Assembly (NCBI GenBank): GCA_016200355.1
Contig: JACQEY010000117.1
Coordinates: forward strand, 1 to 37,846
DNA length: 37,846 nt
From: Nitrospirota bacterium
GTDB lineage: Bacteria; Nitrospirota; Nitrospiria; Nitrospirales; Nitrospiraceae
Direction: 5' to 3'
Position numbers and translations under genes: made by a program. Of this stretch, positions 6,151 to 37,846 are shown in pieces. Numbering within the stretch: the first letter of the stretch is position 1; the number at the start of each line of letters is the position of its first letter. The notes under the pieces are model-generated. The model worked only from the letters and a program-made list of their open reading frames with translations, had not been told where the DNA came from and searched no databases.

Positions 6151-6183
6151 AAAAGGGAAGGCTCCATGCCTTCCCTTTTTTTG
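6151..6183 (+). terminator. Rho-independent terminator after rpsI
   Basis: A 9-bp stem AAGGGAAGG / CCTTCCCTT around a 7-nt loop, followed by a T run, starts about 20 bp after the rpsI stop codon. It closes the bfn-bfn-rplM-rpsI transcript; argC begins 30 bp further on. Confidence 0.88.
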
Positions 6184-6213
6184 TGTCCGTGGCACACATG
6201 GCAGGTGATACAA

Positions 6214-7287
6214 ATGAAAAAGGTACGCGTCGCCATTGCAGGGGCCAGTGGGTATGCTGGAGCGGAGCTCGTTCGCCTGGCAGCTCTCCACCCGCACTTC
6301 GATCTCCACGCTGTCACTTCTGAGAAGTCTGCCGGGGCTCCCGTGGCAACAGTTTTCCCAAGTCTGACCGGCCTCGTGTCTCTCTCGTTTCAAGCGCTCT
6401 CACCCGAAGCCTTAGCGGAACAGACAGATGCGGTCTTCTTGGCCCTTCCCCATACCAAATCATTAGAGCCGGTCTCCGCCTGTCTCAAAACCGGCAAACT
6501 GGTGGTGGACCTCAGCGCCGACTACCGGCTCACGGATCCTGCCGTCTATGAACAATGGTATAAAACACCGCATACCTATCCGGGATTGCTGAAGGACGCG
6601 GTCTACGGACTTCCCGAATTGCATCGTGCCGCCATTGCCAAGGCAAAACTCGTCGCGTCACCCGGCTGTTACCCAACGGCAGCTGTTCTGCAATTGGCCC
6701 CACTGTTCGCACAGAATCTCGTGCAGCCTCACACCGTAGTCATCGATGCGAAGTCCGGCATTTCCGGGGCTGGGCGAAGCCCGGCGCTCCCCTACCATTT
6801 CCCTGAAGCCCATGAATCCTTAGAGCCCTACAAAATCGGGGGCCACCGCCACATCCCTGAGATCGAACAAGAACTCGGTAGGTTGCTTCAACGAGCCTCG
6901 CAACCATCAGGAAAGATGGCCCCAGAGCCGATCGTGACATTCACTCCGCACCTCGTCCCGATGAATCGAGGCATCTTGAGCACCGCCTACTGCAAGCTGA
7001 AGAGTCCGATGTCGCTGCCGGACCTGCGCGCGATGTATCGAGACTTTTATAAAGGCGAGCGATTCGTCAGATTCCAGGAAGAGACCATTCCGAATCCGCG
7101 TTACATCAAGGGCTCCAACTATTGCGATATCGGCGTCTACCTGGACTCCCGATCAGGATCGGTCATTACGGTCGCCGCGCTGGATAATCTGGTGAAGGGC
7201 GCAGCAGGCCAAGCGATTCAGGCCATGAACCTCATGTTGGGATTCCCTGAGGAGACAGGCTTGACGGCACCAGCCGCCTACCCCTAG
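6214..7287 (+). CDS. argC: N-acetyl-gamma-glutamyl-phosphate reductase
   Basis: 357 residues. Catalyses the NADPH-dependent reduction of N-acetylglutamyl phosphate to the semialdehyde, the third step of arginine synthesis. The N-terminal Rossmann segment VAIAGASGYAGAELVRL, the active-site cysteine in SPGCYPTAAVLQ near residue 150, and KSGISGAGRSP are all present. The ATG at 6214 gives the normal ArgC N-terminus (MKKVRVAIAGASG) with AGGTG upstream; an open frame starting at 6166 runs back into the terminator and is not used. The stop TAG at 7285-7287 is also the first triplet of a repeated MITE-like element. argJ follows 228 bp later on the same strand, so the two probably serve one arginine unit. 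Confidence 0.96.
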   Translation: MKKVRVAIAGASGYAGAELVRLAALHPHFDLHAVTSEKSAGAPVATVFPSLTGLVSLSFQALSPEALAEQTDAVFLALPHTKSLEPVSACLKTGKLVVDLSADYRLTDPAVYEQWYKTPHTYPGLLKDAVYGLPELHRAAIAKAKLVASPGCYPTAAVLQLAPLFAQNLVQPHTVVIDAKSGISGAGRSPALPYHFPEAHESLEPYKIGGHRHIPEIEQELGRLLQRASQPSGKMAPEPIVTFTPHLVPMNRGILSTAYCKLKSPMSLPDLRAMYRDFYKGERFVRFQEETIPNPRYIKGSNYCDIGVYLDSRSGSVITVAALDNLVKGAAGQAIQAMNLMLGFPEETGLTAPAAYP

Positions 7288-7489
7288 CAGGATGCTGAAA
7301 AAGTCCGCCAGCGGCGTTCTCACTTCGCGCAGAGGCTCAACGTACCGAAGCGTACGCCTCGCCTCTCCGCTTGCTGCGGCCTTGCTGGACGGCCTTTTTG
7401 AGCATCCTGCGCGGTGTTCTCCTGTTGTTCTAGATATGCAGACCATTGAATTTCAGCAGTGCCACAAAAGTTTTTCCGCAGACTCCTAG
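7284..7489. mobile_element. MITE-like composite repeat between argC and argJ
   Basis: A 206-bp non-coding element with imperfect inverted ends. It starts CTAGCAGGATGCTGAAAAA and ends TTTTTCCGCAGACTCCTAG; the end, read in reverse, matches the start at 15 of 19 positions. Inside are further inverted arms: GGATGCTGAAAAAGTCCG near 7289 against CGGCCTTTTTGAGCATCC ending near 7408. A related, longer copy lies at 37531 to the window end and half copies lie at 25471-25520 and 28357-28386. The first TAG is the argC stop codon. No transposase is encoded, so it would need one supplied in trans. It ends 27 bp before the argJ start. Confidence 0.7.
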
Positions 7490-7515
7490 TCCACATTGAG
7501 CAGGACATCTTGCTC

Positions 7516-8745
7516 ATGAGCATAACCAAAAAAACACCAACCGCATCTCCGCGCCGTGGAGTCACCGCCCCGCAGGGGTTCCGCGCAGCCGGCATCCATT
7601 GCGGCATCAAGAAGCCAGGCCTGCTGGACCTTGCGCTCGTCGTTTCTGAACAGAGCGGTCCCATCGCCGGAGTCTTCACGAAAAATCAGGTGGTCGCGGC
7701 GCCGGTCATCGTCGATCGCCTGCACCTGCGCCAGGGAATCGGGCGGGCCATTCTCGTCAACAGCGGTAATGCAAACGCCTGCACCGGCAATAAGGGATTA
7801 GCCGCCGCAAAGAAGACTGCCACCGTGCTTGCACGCCACTTGCGTATCCCCTCGCAACAAGTATTCATCGGGTCAACCGGTGTGATCGGTCGTGCATTAC
7901 CGGTCGATCGAATCATAAAAGGCATACCACAGTTGCTCGCTCAACTCAGCGACCGTGGAGGGCCGGATGCCGCTCGGGCGATCATGACGACCGACCTGCG
8001 CCCGAAATCCGTCGCCCTTCAAGACACCATCGGTGGTCGTCTGATTACCATCGGCGGGATGGCCAAGGGTTCTGGAATGATCCATCCCAACATGGCCACG
8101 ATGCTGGCCTATTTCACCACGGATGCGTCAATCACGAAGAGCGCCCTCCAACTGGCTCTCAGCCTGGCCGCCAATGAGTCATTCAATTGCATCTCGGTCG
8201 ACGGTGACACGAGTACGAACGATACGGTCCTGTGCTTGGCAAACGGCATGGCAGGCAACCACAGGATCAAGGACGGCACGGCTGCCTTTCAGCGATTTCT
8301 CCTGCTCCTGACAGAAGCCTGCCAAGCACTCGCCCTGGCGATTTGCCGCGACGGGGAAGGTGTCACCAAGGTGGTGAACATCGAGGTGACCGGAGCAGCC
8401 ACAGTAGCGCAGGCACGGCAGGTCGCCCAAACCATTGCGACCTCGAACTTGGTAAAGACCGCCCTCTTCGGCGAGGATGCCAATTGGGGCCGGGTGATGG
8501 CGGCGATCGGACGAGCCGGAGTTCCGATTACTCCTTCGAAGTTGAGTCTGTCGTTCGGCGGGGTTCCGATGGTAAAAAAAGGAATGGGACTCGGGCTTGT
8601 TGCTGAAGCCCGCATCGCGGAAGTCTTTCGCCAGAAAGAATTTACGATCACGGTGGGCTTGGGGCAAGGCCGTCACCGATCTCACATCTGGACGACCGAT
8701 CTGTCGTTCGACTATGTCCGCATCAACGCAAGCTACCGATCGTAA
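7516..8745 (+). CDS. argJ: Bifunctional glutamate N-acetyltransferase / amino-acid acetyltransferase
   Basis: 409 residues of the ArgJ (OAT) family, which transfers acetyl from N-acetylornithine to glutamate, giving cyclic arginine synthesis, and may also use acetyl-CoA. The self-cleavage site is plain: MAKGSGMIHPNMATML near residue 190, where the threonine of MATML becomes the N-terminal nucleophile of the beta chain. VNSGNANACTG, FIGSTGVIGR and the late GEDANWGRVMAAIGR are family hallmarks. The ATG at 7516 (MSITKKTPTASPRRG) is preferred, with AGGA about eleven bases upstream. The frame is also open back to a GTG at 7459 inside the repeat element, which would add MPQKFFRRLL. Neighbouring argC supports an arginine role. 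Confidence 0.95.
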   Translation: MSITKKTPTASPRRGVTAPQGFRAAGIHCGIKKPGLLDLALVVSEQSGPIAGVFTKNQVVAAPVIVDRLHLRQGIGRAILVNSGNANACTGNKGLAAAKKTATVLARHLRIPSQQVFIGSTGVIGRALPVDRIIKGIPQLLAQLSDRGGPDAARAIMTTDLRPKSVALQDTIGGRLITIGGMAKGSGMIHPNMATMLAYFTTDASITKSALQLALSLAANESFNCISVDGDTSTNDTVLCLANGMAGNHRIKDGTAAFQRFLLLLTEACQALALAICRDGEGVTKVVNIEVTGAATVAQARQVAQTIATSNLVKTALFGEDANWGRVMAAIGRAGVPITPSKLSLSFGGVPMVKKGMGLGLVAEARIAEVFRQKEFTITVGLGQGRHRSHIWTTDLSFDYVRINASYRS

Positions 8746-9469: not shown

Positions 9470-9572
9470 CCGCAGGAATACGGTCACTCTTCCTGAATCA
9501 ACCTCATTGCCTAACTGGCTGGTGAATTCGAATTAAGAAAGACCAGGAAGCGACAAGGTGCCCTTCTTGCTC

Positions 9573-9614
9573 GCAGAACGCGCGGCCTAGGAAGGCCCTC
9601 GTTCGATGCGCGCA
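9573..9614. repeat. GC-rich 42-bp repeat, copy 1
   Basis: Contains GCGCGGCCTAGGAAGGCCCT followed by a GCGCGC end, giving an inner stem GGCCT/AGGCC and an outer GCGCG/CGCGC. It matches copy 2 (9697-9738) at about 34 of 42 positions. The hairpin form is similar to REP-type elements. Confidence 0.6.
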
Positions 9615-9696
9615 GTCGAGGGCAACCTTGGCCACTCCCCTCTAATATGGTGGGAAGGAAGGAAAAAAAAGAACCGTCTGACGATTCCCTATCCTA

Positions 9697-9738
9697 GCGC
9701 AACGCGCGGCCTCAGAAGGCCCTCGTTGAACGCGCACA
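9697..9738. repeat. GC-rich 42-bp repeat, copy 2
   Basis: Direct repeat of 9573-9614 at 124-bp spacing, with the same inner GGCCT...AGGCC stem and the shared core AAGGCCCTCGTT. Differences are concentrated in the loop and the outer arm. Confidence 0.6.
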
Positions 9739-10771: not shown

Positions 10772-11074
10772 CTACGGAAGGGAACTAAGGACATACGCTG
10801 AGAACTCCCGAAGACCATATCGGTCTGTTGCTGAAAACCTTGGGAAGGTTCCGCCATGATTATGGACTTCAATCAACGCTTCGCTAGACTTGATCGCGGA
10901 ATTGATCACTCTGACAATCGACTCAATATCCAAATTCCAACCGCGCGCATCCATCGTTACTTCGTCATCGGGAATCAGAATCACATCACGGACCATAAAG
11001 ATTGGTTCGCCACCAGAATAGGTCCAATTTGCGAGCAGGAAGGCAAAGTGAGCTAGCCCCACTTTCGTGGACAC
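10772..11074 (-). CDS. JAMM/MPN (JAB) metalloprotease domain, short and probably truncated
   Basis: 100 residues carrying a complete-looking JAMM zinc motif: VHNHGGTFPRFSATD gives HxH (residues 71 and 73) and Asp84 at the canonical HxH-x10-D spacing, with the usual Ser at 81. JAMM proteases cut isopeptide or C-terminal tails from ubiquitin-fold proteins. The upstream segment AHFAFLLANW resembles the start of JAB domains that lie next to ThiF genes, but the glutamate normally found just before it is missing. The only start, GTG at 11074, lies inside a 29-bp inverted repeat. The stop after VLSSLP also comes early, since related proteins carry 40 or more further residues. Both ends therefore look damaged. 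It may be a remnant, or may act as a fragment; a frame break before the ThiF-like gene is possible. Confidence 0.65.
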   Translation of the reverse strand: MSTKVGLAHFAFLLANWTYSGGEPIFMVRDVILIPDDEVTMDARGWNLDIESIVRVINSAIKSSEALIEVHNHGGTFPRFSATDRYGLREFSAYVLSSLP

Positions 11075-11129
11075 CTCAAAAAGGGGACAATAGCCCCTGG
11101 GAGGTGTCCACGAAAGTGGGGCTAGCTCA
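11049..11129. repeat. 81-bp palindromic element with 29-bp perfect arms
   Basis: The left arm at 11049-11077 (TGAGCTAGCCCC to GGACACCTC) is repeated exactly in reverse at 11101-11129. The 23-bp centre contains AGGGG/CCCCT, which extends the fold. Read from the inside out, the sequence TGTCCACGAAAGTGGGG looks like insertion-sequence terminal repeats facing each other. No flanking target duplication is evident. The JAMM-gene start codon lies in the left arm. Confidence 0.85.
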
Positions 11130-25376: not shown

Positions 25377-25412
25377 CATTTGGTCTATTTGGTTTGTCTG
25401 GTTTTTTGGTTG
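25377..25412. repeat. Nine-base tandem repeat array (TTTGGTTNN type)
   Basis: Four units of nine bases: CATTTGGTC, TATTTGGTT, TGTCTGGTT, TTTTGGTTG. The same unit type occurs at 28240-28345. It lies between the lipoprotein gene and the end of trpA. Confidence 0.65.
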
Positions 25413-25470
25413 GACGAAACTAAGCAGATCAACCCGAGAGATCGGACAGACTGCCTTGCCCCGAAGTGCC

Positions 25471-25520
25471 GGCCATTGAAATTCTGCAGGACCAACATGG
25501 ATTTTCCAGCAGCCTGCTAG
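25471..25520. mobile_element. Half MITE-like element ending in the trpA stop codon
   Basis: GGCCATTGAAATTCTGCAGG to CAGCAGCCTGCTAG matches the right end of the element at 7442-7489 at about three quarters of positions. Its final TAG, read on the minus strand as TAGCAGGCTGCTGGAAAA, provides the TAG stop of trpA. Confidence 0.6.
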
Positions 25521-26335
25521 CGGGTTTTTGGCTGAGCCGCGCTCATGGCAGCTTTCAATGAGCGGACAAATTCCGCCACATGCTTCACCATCTCCGGTTT
25601 CTGCTGGTATGCGGCGATCTGCTTGACGATCGCACTGCCGACGATCACCCCATCGGCAATGGCCGAAACCTTAGCAGCATCTTCCGGCGTTGCGACTCCG
25701 AATCCGACTGCTACCGGAACGTGGGTGACCTTCTTAATTTTCTCGACGTTCTTACCCACATCGACCAGGTTGACCAATTTCGCGCCGGTGATGCCGGTCA
25801 GCGACACGTAATAGACGAAGCCCTGTGACTGGCGCGCGACAAAGGTCCGTCGCTCTGCCGTGCTCGTGGGAGCCAGAAGAAATATCAGTGGAAGCCCAGC
25901 CGCGGCAGCCGGCCCTTTGAGCGGGCCTGCTTCATCCGGCGGCATGTCAGGAAAAATGAGCCCATCGATACCGGCCTGGGCAGCCTCCTGGCAAAACCGT
26001 TCAGGACCGAATGCGTGAATACTATTGTAGTAGGCCATCAAGACCAGCGGAATCTGGGTTCTGGCCCTGAGACGAGTGACCATGGAAATGATCGTTCGAA
26101 GCGATGTCCCACTGCGCAAGGCTCGCTCTGCCGCCTGTTGAATCACGGGACCATCGGCGATGGGATCGGAAAACGGGACACCCAGTTCAATGATATCGGC
26201 ACCGGCCTGTTCTAACGCCACAACGAGTTGCTCTGTCTCTTTCAGTGAGGGGTCGCCTGCCATGACATAGGCAATGAGTGCCTTTTCACCTCGCTGCCGA
26301 AGCTGTGCAAAGGTGCGGTCAAGCTTTGAGGTCAC
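25517..26335 (-). CDS. trpA: Tryptophan synthase alpha subunit
   Basis: 272 residues. Splits indole-3-glycerol phosphate to indole, which channels to the beta subunit. The (beta/alpha)8 active-site residues are visible: the Glu in [15 protein letters not shown] and the Asp in the same stretch, with [12 protein letters not shown] and the phosphate-binding [10 protein letters not shown] near residue 212. The ATG at 26335 overlaps the trpB stop by four bases, the classic coupling. The stop codon comes from a repeat element (25471-25520). It is the last gene of the minus-strand trp operon. Confidence 0.96.
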
Positions 26336-28211: not shown

Positions 28212-28239
28212 CTTAAACGCTCCGCACGTCTAGAGAAGT

Positions 28240-28345
28240 CAGGTCTGTCTGGTCCATCTGGTTTCTCAGGTCTATCTGGTTTGTTTAGTTCTTCGAGTCG
28301 GACTTGTTTAACCAAACAAACGAGACAAACCAAATAAACCAAATA
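28240..28345. repeat. Paired nine-base repeat arrays in opposite orientation
   Basis: Left array 28240-28293: CAGGTCTGT, CTGGTCCAT, CTGGTTTCT, CAGGTCTAT, CTGGTTTGT, TTAGTTCTT. Right array 28310-28345, on the other strand: AACCAAACA, AACGAGACA, AACCAAATA, AACCAAATA. The arrays can pair with each other to form a large hairpin between trpF and trpC. Unit length nine is a multiple of three, so reading frames through it stay open. Confidence 0.7.
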
Positions 28346-28356
28346 ACAGTCTTCCT

Positions 28357-28386
28357 CTGCTGGCGAGCTTTTTCAGCATCCTGCTA
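28357..28386. mobile_element. Half MITE-like element ending in the trpC stop codon
   Basis: CTGCTGGCGAGCTTTTTCAG followed by CATCCTGCTA, read on the minus strand, is TAGCAGGATGCTGAAAAAGC, identical over 19 bases to the left end of the argC-argJ element. Its TAG is the trpC stop codon. Confidence 0.7.
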
Positions 28387-29205
28387 TGCGTGCGACGGAG
28401 CCGGCACTCCTCGTAACTCACGAATCTTTTCCCCGATGTCATCGGCTCGAATGAGCGATTCTCCCACGAGCATGGCATGGATGCCGGCTTCGACCAGCCG
28501 GACGACGTCGGCGCGCTGGTGGATGCCGCTTTCGCTGACGATCAGCTTGCCGGACGGAATCCGTTTCGCCAAGCGCAGCGTGATGGCCAGATCGGTCGTG
28601 AAGGTCTTAAGATCTCGGTTGTTGATACCGATCAGCCTCGCCTCCGGGAGTCGCTCCAATACCCTATCAAGTTCGCGCTCATGATGGGTCTCGATAAGCA
28701 CGTCCACCCCTAACCCACGGGCGAGGGCATAGAAATCGATCAGTTGCTGCCGTTCAAGCGCGGCGACGATCAAGAGGACTGCATCGGCCCCGTAGGCTCG
28801 CGCTTCGTAGAATTGAATCTCGTCGACCATGAACTCTTTGTTCAAGACGGGCATGGGCACCGACTGTTTGATCTCTCGGAGATAGTCGAGGCTCCCCTGG
28901 AAGAAATCCTTGTCGGTTAAGACGGACAGCGCCGAGGCGCCATGGACATGGTAGGCCTTGGCAATTTCGAGATAGTCGAACCGCTCAGAAAACTCAGGGC
29001 GGAGCAGGCCAAGACTGGGTGAGGCCTTTTTCACTTCGGCAATCAGCGAAGGACTGCCGCCCGTTCTCGTAGCTTCGAGGGTCACGGCAAAACCGAGTGG
29101 ACCTGGCGCGTCTTGAATCTTCGCCTTCAACTCGGAGAGATAGCCCCGGCTTCGCTTGCGCCGGAGTTCCGCTTTCTTATGCTCAAGAATGCGAGAGAGA
29201 ATCAC
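28384..29205 (-). CDS. trpC: Indole-3-glycerol phosphate synthase
   Basis: 273 residues. Closes the indole ring from carboxyphenylamino-deoxyribulose phosphate. Family segments: LIAEVKKASPSLGLL near residue 65 with the catalytic Lys, ALSVLTDKDFFQGSLDYL, VLNKEFMVDEIQFYEARAYG, LIGINNRDLKTF and IVSESGIHQRADV. The start is GTG at 29205 (VILSRILEHKKAEL), eight bases past the trpD stop and with AAGGG upstream; the frame is open much further back, inside trpD, which is not meaningful. This TrpC is a single-domain protein, not fused to TrpF. The stop codon comes from a repeat end. Confidence 0.94.
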   Translation of the reverse strand: MILSRILEHKKAELRRKRSRGYLSELKAKIQDAPGPLGFAVTLEATRTGGSPSLIAEVKKASPSLGLLRPEFSERFDYLEIAKAYHVHGASALSVLTDKDFFQGSLDYLREIKQSVPMPVLNKEFMVDEIQFYEARAYGADAVLLIVAALERQQLIDFYALARGLGVDVLIETHHERELDRVLERLPEARLIGINNRDLKTFTTDLAITLRLAKRIPSGKLIVSESGIHQRADVVRLVEAGIHAMLVGESLIRADDIGEKIRELRGVPAPSHA

Positions 29206-29212
29206 AATGGCA

Positions 29213-30226
29213 TCAGCCCTTATTCGTAAATGCGATGAGACGGGCCAATTTCTCAGCCGCGGCACCAGAATCGATAGCCTGGCCCGCCAGGAGGAACCCC
29301 TCTTGAAGGGTTGCCGCCTTGCGCCCTGCAACAAGAGCCGGCGCGGCATTTAAACAGACGATGTCCCGTTTCGGCCCCTTCCGCCCTTGGAGAATGTCGC
29401 GAGTGATCGCGGCATTCTCTTGCGGAGTCCCTCCAGTCAGCTGTTTAGCTGGAACCAGCGCCAGTCCAAATTCCCCCGGGTCCAGAAGATAGTTTGAGAG
29501 AACACCCCCCTTGGCTTCCGAAATCTGCGTCTTTGTAGTGAGTGTGATCTCATCGAGCCCGTCCATCCCATGGACGACAAAGCAATGTTGCGACCCGAGA
29601 TGCATGAGCACATTCCCCAGCAGAGAGGTTAATCGACCTTCATAGACACCGAGCACTTGAATGGTAGCTCCCGCAGGATTGGTCAGGGGGCCCAAAAGAT
29701 TCAATATAGTCCGGATGCCCATTTCCTGTCTTGGGGCGGCACAATGTTTCATGGCTCCATGATAGAGCGGGGCGAAGAGAAAGCCGATCCCGACCTCATT
29801 GATACAATCGGCCACACGTTCAGTCGGCAGATCGATCTTGACCCCGAGGGCCGATAGGACGTCTGCACTCCCTGACTTGGACGACACGGAACGGTTGCCG
29901 TGCTTTGCCACAGTCATGCCTGCACCTGCGAGGACAAGCGCCGCTGTGGTGGAAATATTGAACGTGTGGGCTCCGTCCCCGCCCGTGCCGCAAGTATCCA
30001 CAACCAGGGGATCTCCGATTGCGATGCGGACGGCTTTGGCACGCATAGCCCGCACGGAGCCGGCAATTTCCTCGACGGTTTCTCCCTTCAGACGGAGCCC
30101 CATCAAGTAGGCGGCAATTTGGGCCTGAGTCGCTGCGCCTTCCATGATCTCGAGCATCACCGACTCGGCTTCTTGTTCGGTGAGGGAGGAACGGTCGGCA
30201 AGTTTAGCAATCGCGTTTTTGATCAT
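29213..30226 (-). CDS. trpD: Anthranilate phosphoribosyltransferase
   Basis: 337 residues. Joins anthranilate to PRPP. Substrate-binding motifs are intact: VDTCGTGGDGAHTFNIST near residue 75, VAKHGNRSVSSKSGSADVL near 105, and FLFAPLYHGAMKH near 150. The N-terminal helical domain has SLTEQEAESVM. It is a separate enzyme rather than a fusion with TrpG. The ATG at 30226 is 24 bp after trpG, and trpC starts eight bases after its stop. Confidence 0.96.
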   Translation of the reverse strand: MIKNAIAKLADRSSLTEQEAESVMLEIMEGAATQAQIAAYLMGLRLKGETVEEIAGSVRAMRAKAVRIAIGDPLVVDTCGTGGDGAHTFNISTTAALVLAGAGMTVAKHGNRSVSSKSGSADVLSALGVKIDLPTERVADCINEVGIGFLFAPLYHGAMKHCAAPRQEMGIRTILNLLGPLTNPAGATIQVLGVYEGRLTSLLGNVLMHLGSQHCFVVHGMDGLDEITLTTKTQISEAKGGVLSNYLLDPGEFGLALVPAKQLTGGTPQENAAITRDILQGRKGPKRDIVCLNAAPALVAGRKAATLQEGFLLAGQAIDSGAAAEKLARLIAFTNKG

Positions 30227-36850: not shown

Positions 36851-37561
36851 TTATGAATCGTCTCGAAATACAAAAGCCTGGAGATCAAGGGAGGATTCGA
36901 GATGGGAGGCAGCGGCTTCTGCCTGAGCTTCCCTGGAAAATTGACCAATCTGAACTCGATATCGCTTTCCTTCTGGAAGATCGACAACCTGGATTCTGCC
37001 TCCTGAATAGAACTGTTTCACGCGCTCTAAGAAATTGATGGCATTCTGATAATCGGAAAAAGACCCAACTTGCACTCTTAAAACCCCCATCTCGGCAGTC
37101 CGTCCTTGATACCCCACCACCCGTAGTTCAATCTGGTCGGTTCCTGCCCCGGTCATCCCCAGCGCATGCGCCCCGGCGAGTGAGAGATCGAGCACCCGCC
37201 CCCTGGCAAAGGGGCCACGATCGTTAATCCTGACAGTCACCTGTCGACCGGTACTCATCGATCGAACAACGGCAATTGACCCTAATGGCAAGGTCCGATG
37301 AGCAGCCGTCAGCTGATGCATGTCGTACCGTTCGCCATTTGCCGTCTTGTTTCCATGAAATCCTGGGCCATACCATGAGGCGACCCCGCACTCGACGAAC
37401 CCCACAGGATAGCCTGGGAAATAGGTAGGTTTGGGAGCACCGCTGCAAGCAGCCAGGGCACCGACCATGAGGGGTATGAGAAGAAGGGCTGAGCAGCGAG
37501 ACCAGGTGGCCTCAGCGCTGCGTGATATGTCTAGCAGACGGCAGAAGAACTTCTTTGGCAT
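36851..37561 (-). CDS. rlpA: RlpA-like septal ring lytic transglycosylase lipoprotein
   Basis: 236 residues. A long signal sequence with lipobox LAAC (cysteine near residue 39) precedes a double-psi beta-barrel: CGVASWYGPGFHGNKTANGE, then RYDMHQLTAAHRTLPLGSIA, then RINDRGPFARGRVLDLSLAG. A SPOR domain ends the chain (VLRVQVGSFSDYQNAINFLE), which targets denuded septal glycan. RlpA cuts glycan strands lacking stem peptides. The ATG at 37561 and the next ten codons (MPKKFFCRLL) lie in the end of a repeat element. No other start is possible before the signal helix, so the element appears to supply the start. No ribosome-binding site is evident. An alternative open frame to 37813 would begin deeper inside the element and is less likely. 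Confidence 0.88.
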   Translation of the reverse strand: MPKKFFCRLLDISRSAEATWSRCSALLLIPLMVGALAACSGAPKPTYFPGYPVGFVECGVASWYGPGFHGNKTANGERYDMHQLTAAHRTLPLGSIAVVRSMSTGRQVTVRINDRGPFARGRVLDLSLAGAHALGMTGAGTDQIELRVVGYQGRTAEMGVLRVQVGSFSDYQNAINFLERVKQFYSGGRIQVVDLPEGKRYRVQIGQFSREAQAEAAASHLESSLDLQAFVFRDDS

Positions 37562-37846
37562 ACGAAAACTTCGATGGTATGCACGTGCGGGACAACAGGG
37601 CGACACTACTGGAGGATGCTCAAAAATGCTAGACGTCTCACCCGCACAACCCTGGCGCACCGAGACGCGGCCTTGCCCCAAGCAAGGCCGCAGCGAGCGA
37701 AGATCCGAGGAGGTACAAACCGCACTTCGTGTGTGCCGTTCGCCCTTGCGATGGGTCCTGGCGAACGGAGAAGCCCCCACAGTGTTTCCGACCTCCGAGA
37801 AACTCCTTCTCACCGTTGAGGGTCTGAGCGATGCGAGAACGCTGCC
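37531..37846. mobile_element. rlpA: MITE-like composite repeat at the rlpA start, cut by the window end
   Basis: Starts CTAGCAGACGGCAGAAGAAC, the same end type as the reverse of the argC-argJ element. It then follows that element in order: ACTTCGATGG near 37566-37577, GGATGCTCAAAAA near 37615, and a strong hairpin GGCCTTGC/GCAAGGCC near 37671. It is longer than its relative; the last bases (GATGCGAGAACGCTGCC) match the part near that copy's other end, so the terminus lies just past base 37846. Confidence 0.65.

Follow-up and report, generated by a model that had tools for sequence, protein, structure and literature searches.

The window analyzed here, the whole stretch of 37,846 nucleotides of a Nitrospirota contig (C199 of a 2.94-Mb assembly, G000, with 242 contigs and a completeness of 92.6%), carries argC, trpC, and trpA genes that match their respective NCBIfam models. 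By argC, its nearest named relatives are Nitrospira and Nitrospiraceae MAGs. A short MITE adjoins the argC stop codon, and other copies or modules of it are found elsewhere in the window, as follows.

6166 to 7287, plus strand: argC (TIGR01850), a 373-codon frame whose stop is the element's TAG.
7285 to 7286, plus strand: left copy of the target TA, forming the argC stop TAG with G7287; relatives have empty sites here.
7287 to 7486, plus strand: the full MITE, 200 bp, with left end GCAGGATGCTGAAAAAG, a hairpin body, and a right-end module.
7287 to 7410, plus strand: hairpin unit GCAGGATGCT..GAGCATCCTGC, with AAAAAG and CTTTTT tracts in its stem.
7417 to 7486, minus strand: right-end module of ~70 bp, with outer end GGAGTCTGCGGAAAAAC (inward reading).
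7487 to 7488, plus strand: right copy of the target TA; GTCCACATTGAGCAGG comes next, as it does where relatives have no element (G021, TAATCCACATTGAGCAGG).
25459 to 25519, minus strand: right-end module (TAGCAGGCTGCTGGAAAA..) at the trpA stop.
25517 to 26335, minus strand: trpA, whose stop TAG comes from the adjoining right-end module.
28216 to 28386, minus strand: copy at the trpC stop, with its left end at 28386-28369 and TTGGTTT-type repeats in its body; the far boundary is approximate.
28384 to 29349, minus strand: trpC, whose stop TAG comes from the adjoining element copy.
37532 to 37710, plus strand: diverged copy of approximate extent, with a right-end module at 37532 and no gene stop there.

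The argC stop codon (TAG, 7285-7287) is composed of the target TA and the first base of the element, a G, and TA adjoins both outer ends of the element. An earlier note on this DNA had placed the start of CTAGCAGGATGCTGAAAAA exactly at this stop and had described the far end as an imperfect inverse of the left one. Both observations were borne out: the sequence starts at 7284, its TAG is the stop of the frame at 6166-7287, and the far end reads CTAGGAGTCTGCGGAAAAA inward from 7489. The ends (GNAGNNTGCNGAAAAA) are imperfect terminal inverted repeats of an element that is short (200 bp) and present in high copy number. Its hairpin unit is closed by GCAGGATGCT/..AGCATCCTGC, and its right-end module was found again in other copies. 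A transposase gene is absent, 200 bp being too short for the 342- to 363-amino-acid transposase of the insertion sequence (IS) described below.

Four matches to the left end were found in the window at ≤3 mismatches, against a shuffled mean of 0.02, one of them (at 7395) being the inner arm of the argC element itself. The trpC stop comes from the same left end, as the earlier note had stated, with an exact match on the minus strand at 28369-28386; the right tail of this copy is truncated (..AGACGTGCGGA..). At trpA an element end also supplies the stop (25502-25519), but this end belongs to a right-end module and is not a close variant of the left end, so that the claim of three left ends out of three at stops held for argC and trpC and failed for trpA. 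Nor do all recognizable ends in the window lie at stops, the diverged right-end module at 37532 being away from any gene stop; the body of that copy, at 37681-37710, matches positions 7357-7386 of the argC element. Neither an Rfam search of window positions 7200-7600 nor a search of plasmid and phage DNA with the element returned a match.

In some copies, TTGGTTTGTTTGG-type repeats stand in place of the usual hairpin body, in the window at 25378-25407 and 28315-28344 and elsewhere at L004 and L027, as a second exchangeable module. At 9570-9738 the window also holds two 45-nt direct repeats, 80% alike and with 124 nt between them, that contain ACGCGCGGCCT..GGCCCTCGTT; a similar motif forms the body of the argC copies in G032, G035, and G036, and the repeats may be another element copy, one without ends. 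Separately, an inverted repeat at 11049-11129 has perfect 29-bp arms, each containing GCTAGC, and a 23-nt spacer.

The element is both abundant and widespread. At ≤2 mismatches its left end occurs 165 times in the assembly, compared to 0 occurrences of the reversed pattern. Of 148 genomes taken from the phylum, 52 carry the left-end pattern with ≤1 mismatch, and all 21 genomes tested by DNA match to the element were positive (the window's genome, 12 of the genus, and 8 of the order). In two other families of the phylum, 5/16 and 6/8 of the ends that we read coincided with gene stops, and these shares are upper values because the 20 stretches were chosen by a pattern containing TAG.

Comparison of filled and empty sites shows how the element sits in its target. 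At most empty trpC sites the sequence is ..TAA, with trpF starting only a few bases later. In one trpC pair, the filled site of G005 reads GCC TA-GCAGG...GTTTGC-TA-AGATGG, versus GCC TA-AGATGC at the empty site of G022; TA stands on each side of the element, whose first base is G, and TAA has become TAG at the same place. Similarly, the argC element has TAGTCCACATTGAGCAGG as its right flank, in agreement with TAATCCACATTGAGCAGG (G021) and TAGTCCAGATTGAGCAGG (G005) at empty sites. Among eight full MITE pairs in the stretches read, five retain TA on both sides, and in the other three it has been lost from one side. The outer 4-mers of the five TA-keeping pairs are equal (CTAG) in three and CTAG/CTAA in two, and TA alone therefore fits all five. 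For the IS copies with TAG at both ends, the outer 4-mers are equal in two of five, and a sixth copy has lost the TAG; the target duplication may thus span 2 bp or 3 to 4 bp.

The bases around the TA were likewise biased. In the 86 copies that start with TA, the preceding base is C or T in 74, and the following base is G in 65, A in 12, and C or T in 9. TA is missing in 37 of 123 left ends, and some copies have extra bases between the stop and the element, which may have arisen by later change or may mark a different variant of the end. Genes with a left end 0 to 14 nt after the start of their stop codon end in TGA in only 3 of 67 cases, compared to 81 of 204 other genes of the window's genome, and this rarity distinguishes a TA target from a mere preference for gene ends. 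A 144-bp element in another genome (G152; L386, 1291-1434) closes convergent open frames with both of its TAG ends, one of the frames having a low codon score; such double closure is what an insertion at the palindromic CTAG of overlapping stops would produce.

The earlier note had proposed that the repeat might end genes by design, in which case C termini would be expected to differ at loci without a copy. Orthologous loci proved otherwise. We found argC in 30 of 31 genus genomes (the window's included), and in all 29 with a visible C terminus the stop follows the same residue, irrespective of whether the site is filled (10 genomes; 6 TAG, 4 TAA) or empty (19 genomes; 18 TAA, 1 TAG). A set of named argC loci, 80 kept of 204 relatives found and some from the same genomes as the genus set, gave the same result, with 79 of the 79 that reach the C terminus stopping at the same residue; four loci match the element pattern, which missed at least two diverged copies (L292 and L293). 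The gene trpC was also found in 30 of the 31 genomes, and its end, visible in 28, falls at the same residue in 27, including all 7 filled ones; the trpC of G002 is one codon longer and has a TGA stop. Across 19 trpA loci (the gene being present in 18 of 19 stretches read, plus the window), the protein has 272 residues and the same end in every case, and six sites are filled, four by the left end and two by the right end, so that both orientations occur.

Given that the ends of argC, trpA, and trpC are unchanged whether filled or empty (27 of 28 for trpC), the element does not set where a gene ends and is not a gene-ending device. The observation behind the earlier note is thus confirmed and its interpretation partly supported: an element end does supply the last base of the stop codon, and the coincidence with stops is genome-wide and far above expectation (see below), but an ending of genes by design is not supported, the stop lying at the same position in orthologues that lack the element. 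Several species carry an element at one and the same stop of argC, trpC, or trpA, differing in its body or its orientation. The tails shared at trpC suggest a single insertion there, the body of which may have been exchanged in several lineages. At the argC locus of G034 (L115), a second short argC 3' end (query residues 345 to 373) lies behind the element with its own TGA stop, as a tandem remnant.

Genome-wide placement was quantified from a search pattern free of TAG. An initial count of 48/103 left ends at stops was set aside, being biased because its pattern held TAG, and was replaced by a set based on the 16-mer CAGGATGCTGAAAAAG, which occurs at 74 places in the window's genome and 49 in G027, all of which were read (52 further places in G001 were left out of the counts). 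Stops were taken from gene calls made with our own codon model rather than from curated annotation. Left ends fell exactly at same-strand gene stops in 28 of 74 cases in the window's genome and 16 of 49 in G027. After 5 of the 123 left ends without a gene on their left were dropped, 44 of the remaining 118 lay at a stop and 23 more 1 to 14 nt after one. As a null we took YTAR sites (pyrimidine-TA-purine) outside coding sequence, of which 80 of 904 oriented sites (8.8%) lie at a stop and 11 of 904 (1.2%) at 1 to 14 nt. The binomial P value for the excess at stops, 3e-17, is only indicative because copies in both genomes may partly share descent. The other suggestion of the earlier note, insertion restricted to sites where a stop can be replaced, is not supported: 79 of the 123 left ends do not coincide exactly with a gene stop, even though 23 of these follow one closely.

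The excess held within classes of intergenic spacer. Left ends were at stops in 13 of 19 cases between convergent genes (15.4% expected) and in 31 of 53 between genes of the same direction (21.6% expected), and only 6 of 112 copies with both neighbors known lay in divergent, promoter-containing spacers, versus 193 of 766 YTAR sites (these counts exclude 11 of the 123 copies, located within called genes or at the edge of a contig). Of the 118 left ends, 43 face the 5' side of an opposite-strand gene. Right ends were at stops less often, in 7 of 38 cases in the window's genome (8 by script, with one spurious frame dropped) and 0 of 4 in G027, these 42 being part of 78 matches. Some left ends, including G000:C149:9524 (L018) and G000:C186:21895 (L075), adjoin a Shine-Dalgarno-like AAGGAG of an opposite-strand gene (..CTGCTAAAGGAG..), and the element can thus also sit directly upstream of start regions.

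We also considered the hairpin of the element. The stretch 7285-7416 folds with a predicted energy of -66 kcal/mol (z score, -4.5). In a consensus of 13 copies, from 15 printed units of which two odd ones were left out, 7 of 37 base pairs are kept by two-sided changes, with a covariation term of only -1 kcal/mol. AAAAAG and CTTTTT tracts flank the GC-rich part of the hairpin in the layout of a two-way terminator. A simple terminator scan picked out a single site, located in the tail past the main hairpin (mean of 0.2 in shuffled sequence). We infer that this strong predicted hairpin may help copies behind genes to be kept.

A candidate partner was found among DDE transposases in a search covering two Pfam families in 18 genomes, with 1.5 kb read beside each match. 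Of 36 DDE_Tnp_1 loci, two (L399 and L414), from two relatives of the window's genome, lie between convergent CAGGCTGCGGAAAAAC ends with a spacing of about 1.32 kb. Their frames of 342 and 363 amino acids belong to the IS5 family (NF033581; E values, 4.5e-83 and 1.4e-79), and the MITE, at its right end, and the IS are alike only over the outermost 17 to 22 bp. Four other DDE_Tnp_1 loci (L100, L101, L406, and L410) have a single end-like match nearby. No copy of the IS was seen in the window's own, 92.6% complete assembly, where the sole DDE_Tnp_1 match has no second end nearby. A transposase gene beside another copy (C127:1633) was examined as the autonomous form and rejected, as it lies behind a 126-bp unit with no second end nearby. 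Among the plasmid matches listed for the L414 transposase, the best was from Skermanella (63.4%) and the best IS-named one was ISAzs10 of Azospirillum (62.7%); three of four Alphaproteobacterial IS copies that we read have TAG on both sides.

Taken together, we regard it as very probable that the element is a nonautonomous IS5-type MITE with a YTAR target, whose stop-restoring insertions survive while others are lost. Observed directly are the ends, the TA-to-TA junction relative to an empty site, the unchanged stops, the dependence on TA-containing stops, and an IS with the same inverted repeats; we infer that an IS of the L399/L414 type, or a relative, probably moved the copies. In the proposed mechanism, the partner transposase would insert at TA in a pyrimidine-TA-purine context, and the element's outer ends would begin with a purine, mostly G. 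Where the struck TA forms the first two letters of TAA or TAG, the left TA plus the first element base would again make a stop, with frame and position unchanged. The protein would remain unchanged because the element rebuilds the stop on landing, and such a copy would survive, with insertions inside genes and in promoter spacers being lost.

Target choice and purging are not the whole story, because the YTAR null is exceeded about three- to fourfold; together they predict fewer insertions at stops than were seen, even between convergent genes. One could suppose that copies are aimed at gene 3' ends, or selected there as a stop plus terminator, beyond the available targets. The element would then be mobile gene punctuation, its transposition or survival biased toward 3' ends, with native TAA-plus-spacer ends swapped over time for a standard TAG-plus-hairpin cassette whose body is exchangeable around a fixed stop. 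This proposal, which overlaps our preferred explanation and concerns the excess only, draws on the surplus at stops in same-direction and convergent spacers, the strong predicted hairpin with its A5/U5 tracts, and the three stops filled in several species with differing bodies or orientations. A pure preference for gene ends or terminators would not need the TA that host stops in fact contain (TGA, 3/67), however, and the small covariation term and the single scan site beyond the main hairpin also speak against it; we consider it possible but doubtful. We think it likelier that the excess stems from selection, favoring a hairpin that is harmless or useful when placed behind genes, than from targeting.

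Other origins fit less well. An IS630 (Tc1/mariner-type) MITE like the pneumococcal RUP, with TA duplication, would account for the TA junction and the pyrimidine-TA-purine preference, and the title of a reference cited in PMC2170065 mentions a CTAG preference of IS630. Yet 0 of 21 DDE_3 loci in the 18 genomes are flanked on both sides by element ends within 1.5 kb, whereas IS5-family loci are, which leaves this origin improbable; loci L429 and L430 show one end-like match apiece, and at L426 a pair of ends is separated by 205 bp with the gene not between them. We rate lower still a REP/REPIN moved by a RAYT (IS200-like) transposase, with TAG as the REP tetranucleotide. Short palindromic ends, a TAG-containing foot, and a very high intergenic copy number are what such a repeat would display, but the full elements have TA at both ends, a DDE insertion sequence carries the same inverted repeats, and a search of the genome for Y1_Tnp (RAYT) gave no match while being positive in 5 of 14 control genomes (a RAYT gene could have been missed because the assembly is 92.6% complete). 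Least probable of all are ordinary intrinsic terminators, immobile DNA that came to lie against stops through descent or convergence. A hairpin with a U tract behind genes would suit them; nevertheless, copies across loci and species are 87 to 96% identical to the argC copy among the matches listed, 43 of the 118 left ends are oriented toward the 5' side of an opposite-strand gene, and the empty and filled junctions at the same loci refute this reading.

Several known systems, described here from the available sections of the cited papers, resemble the element in part. The nearest kind is MITEPsy1 of Pseudomonas syringae, a 100-nt MITE with similar ends (inverted repeats ending ..CTGAAAAAGCC) that inserted at CTAG or YTAA and is thought to derive from ISPsy2 (PMC3189936); it differs in its reported 4-nt duplication, and those sections report no stop-codon bias (PMC3189936). 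ISAzs10-like IS5 elements share CAGG(N)CGCGG-like ends with an A run, and YTAG stands on both sides of the ISAzs10 copy read, but they are autonomous, ~1.3 kb long, and have only their ends in common with the MITE. QMITE1 and QMITE2 of Coxiella burnetii overlap the 3' ends of functional genes, some by 1 to 3 bp, a preference whose reason their authors call unknown (PMC5896051). They belong to another sequence family and alter the C terminus of some genes, and no stop-restoring rule is reported in the sections available (PMC5896051). In Streptococcus pneumoniae, RUP is inserted at sites with TA but is of another family, tied to IS630-Spn1 (PMC2229807), and TA duplication is described for the IS630 element ISY100 (PMC2170065). 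The pneumococcal SPRITE is terminator-like and enriched near gene 3' ends, but is also of another family and, in the part available, without an established duplication (PMC3049150). REP/REPIN sequences with RAYT share the hundreds of short intergenic palindromic repeats (PMC3116915, PMC2817692), whereas the present element has no RAYT match and its ends match a DDE element. Our literature search, of partial coverage and thus weak evidence of absence, found no description of this element family or of a stop-restoring rule.

The element is a small mobile repeat of Nitrospira, of a known transposon-relative kind with an unusually strong preference for gene ends. A target TA within stop codons, combined with an element that starts with a purine, provides a simple rule for transposon life inside operons that leaves proteins intact. 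The rule predicts that host genes end in TAA or TAG rather than TGA, and the leftover excess at stops offers a clear test of targeting versus selection. It also counsels caution, as a gene whose TAG stop lies in a repeat does not necessarily have an altered C terminus, and it may explain the 3'-end bias of MITEs that others have left open.
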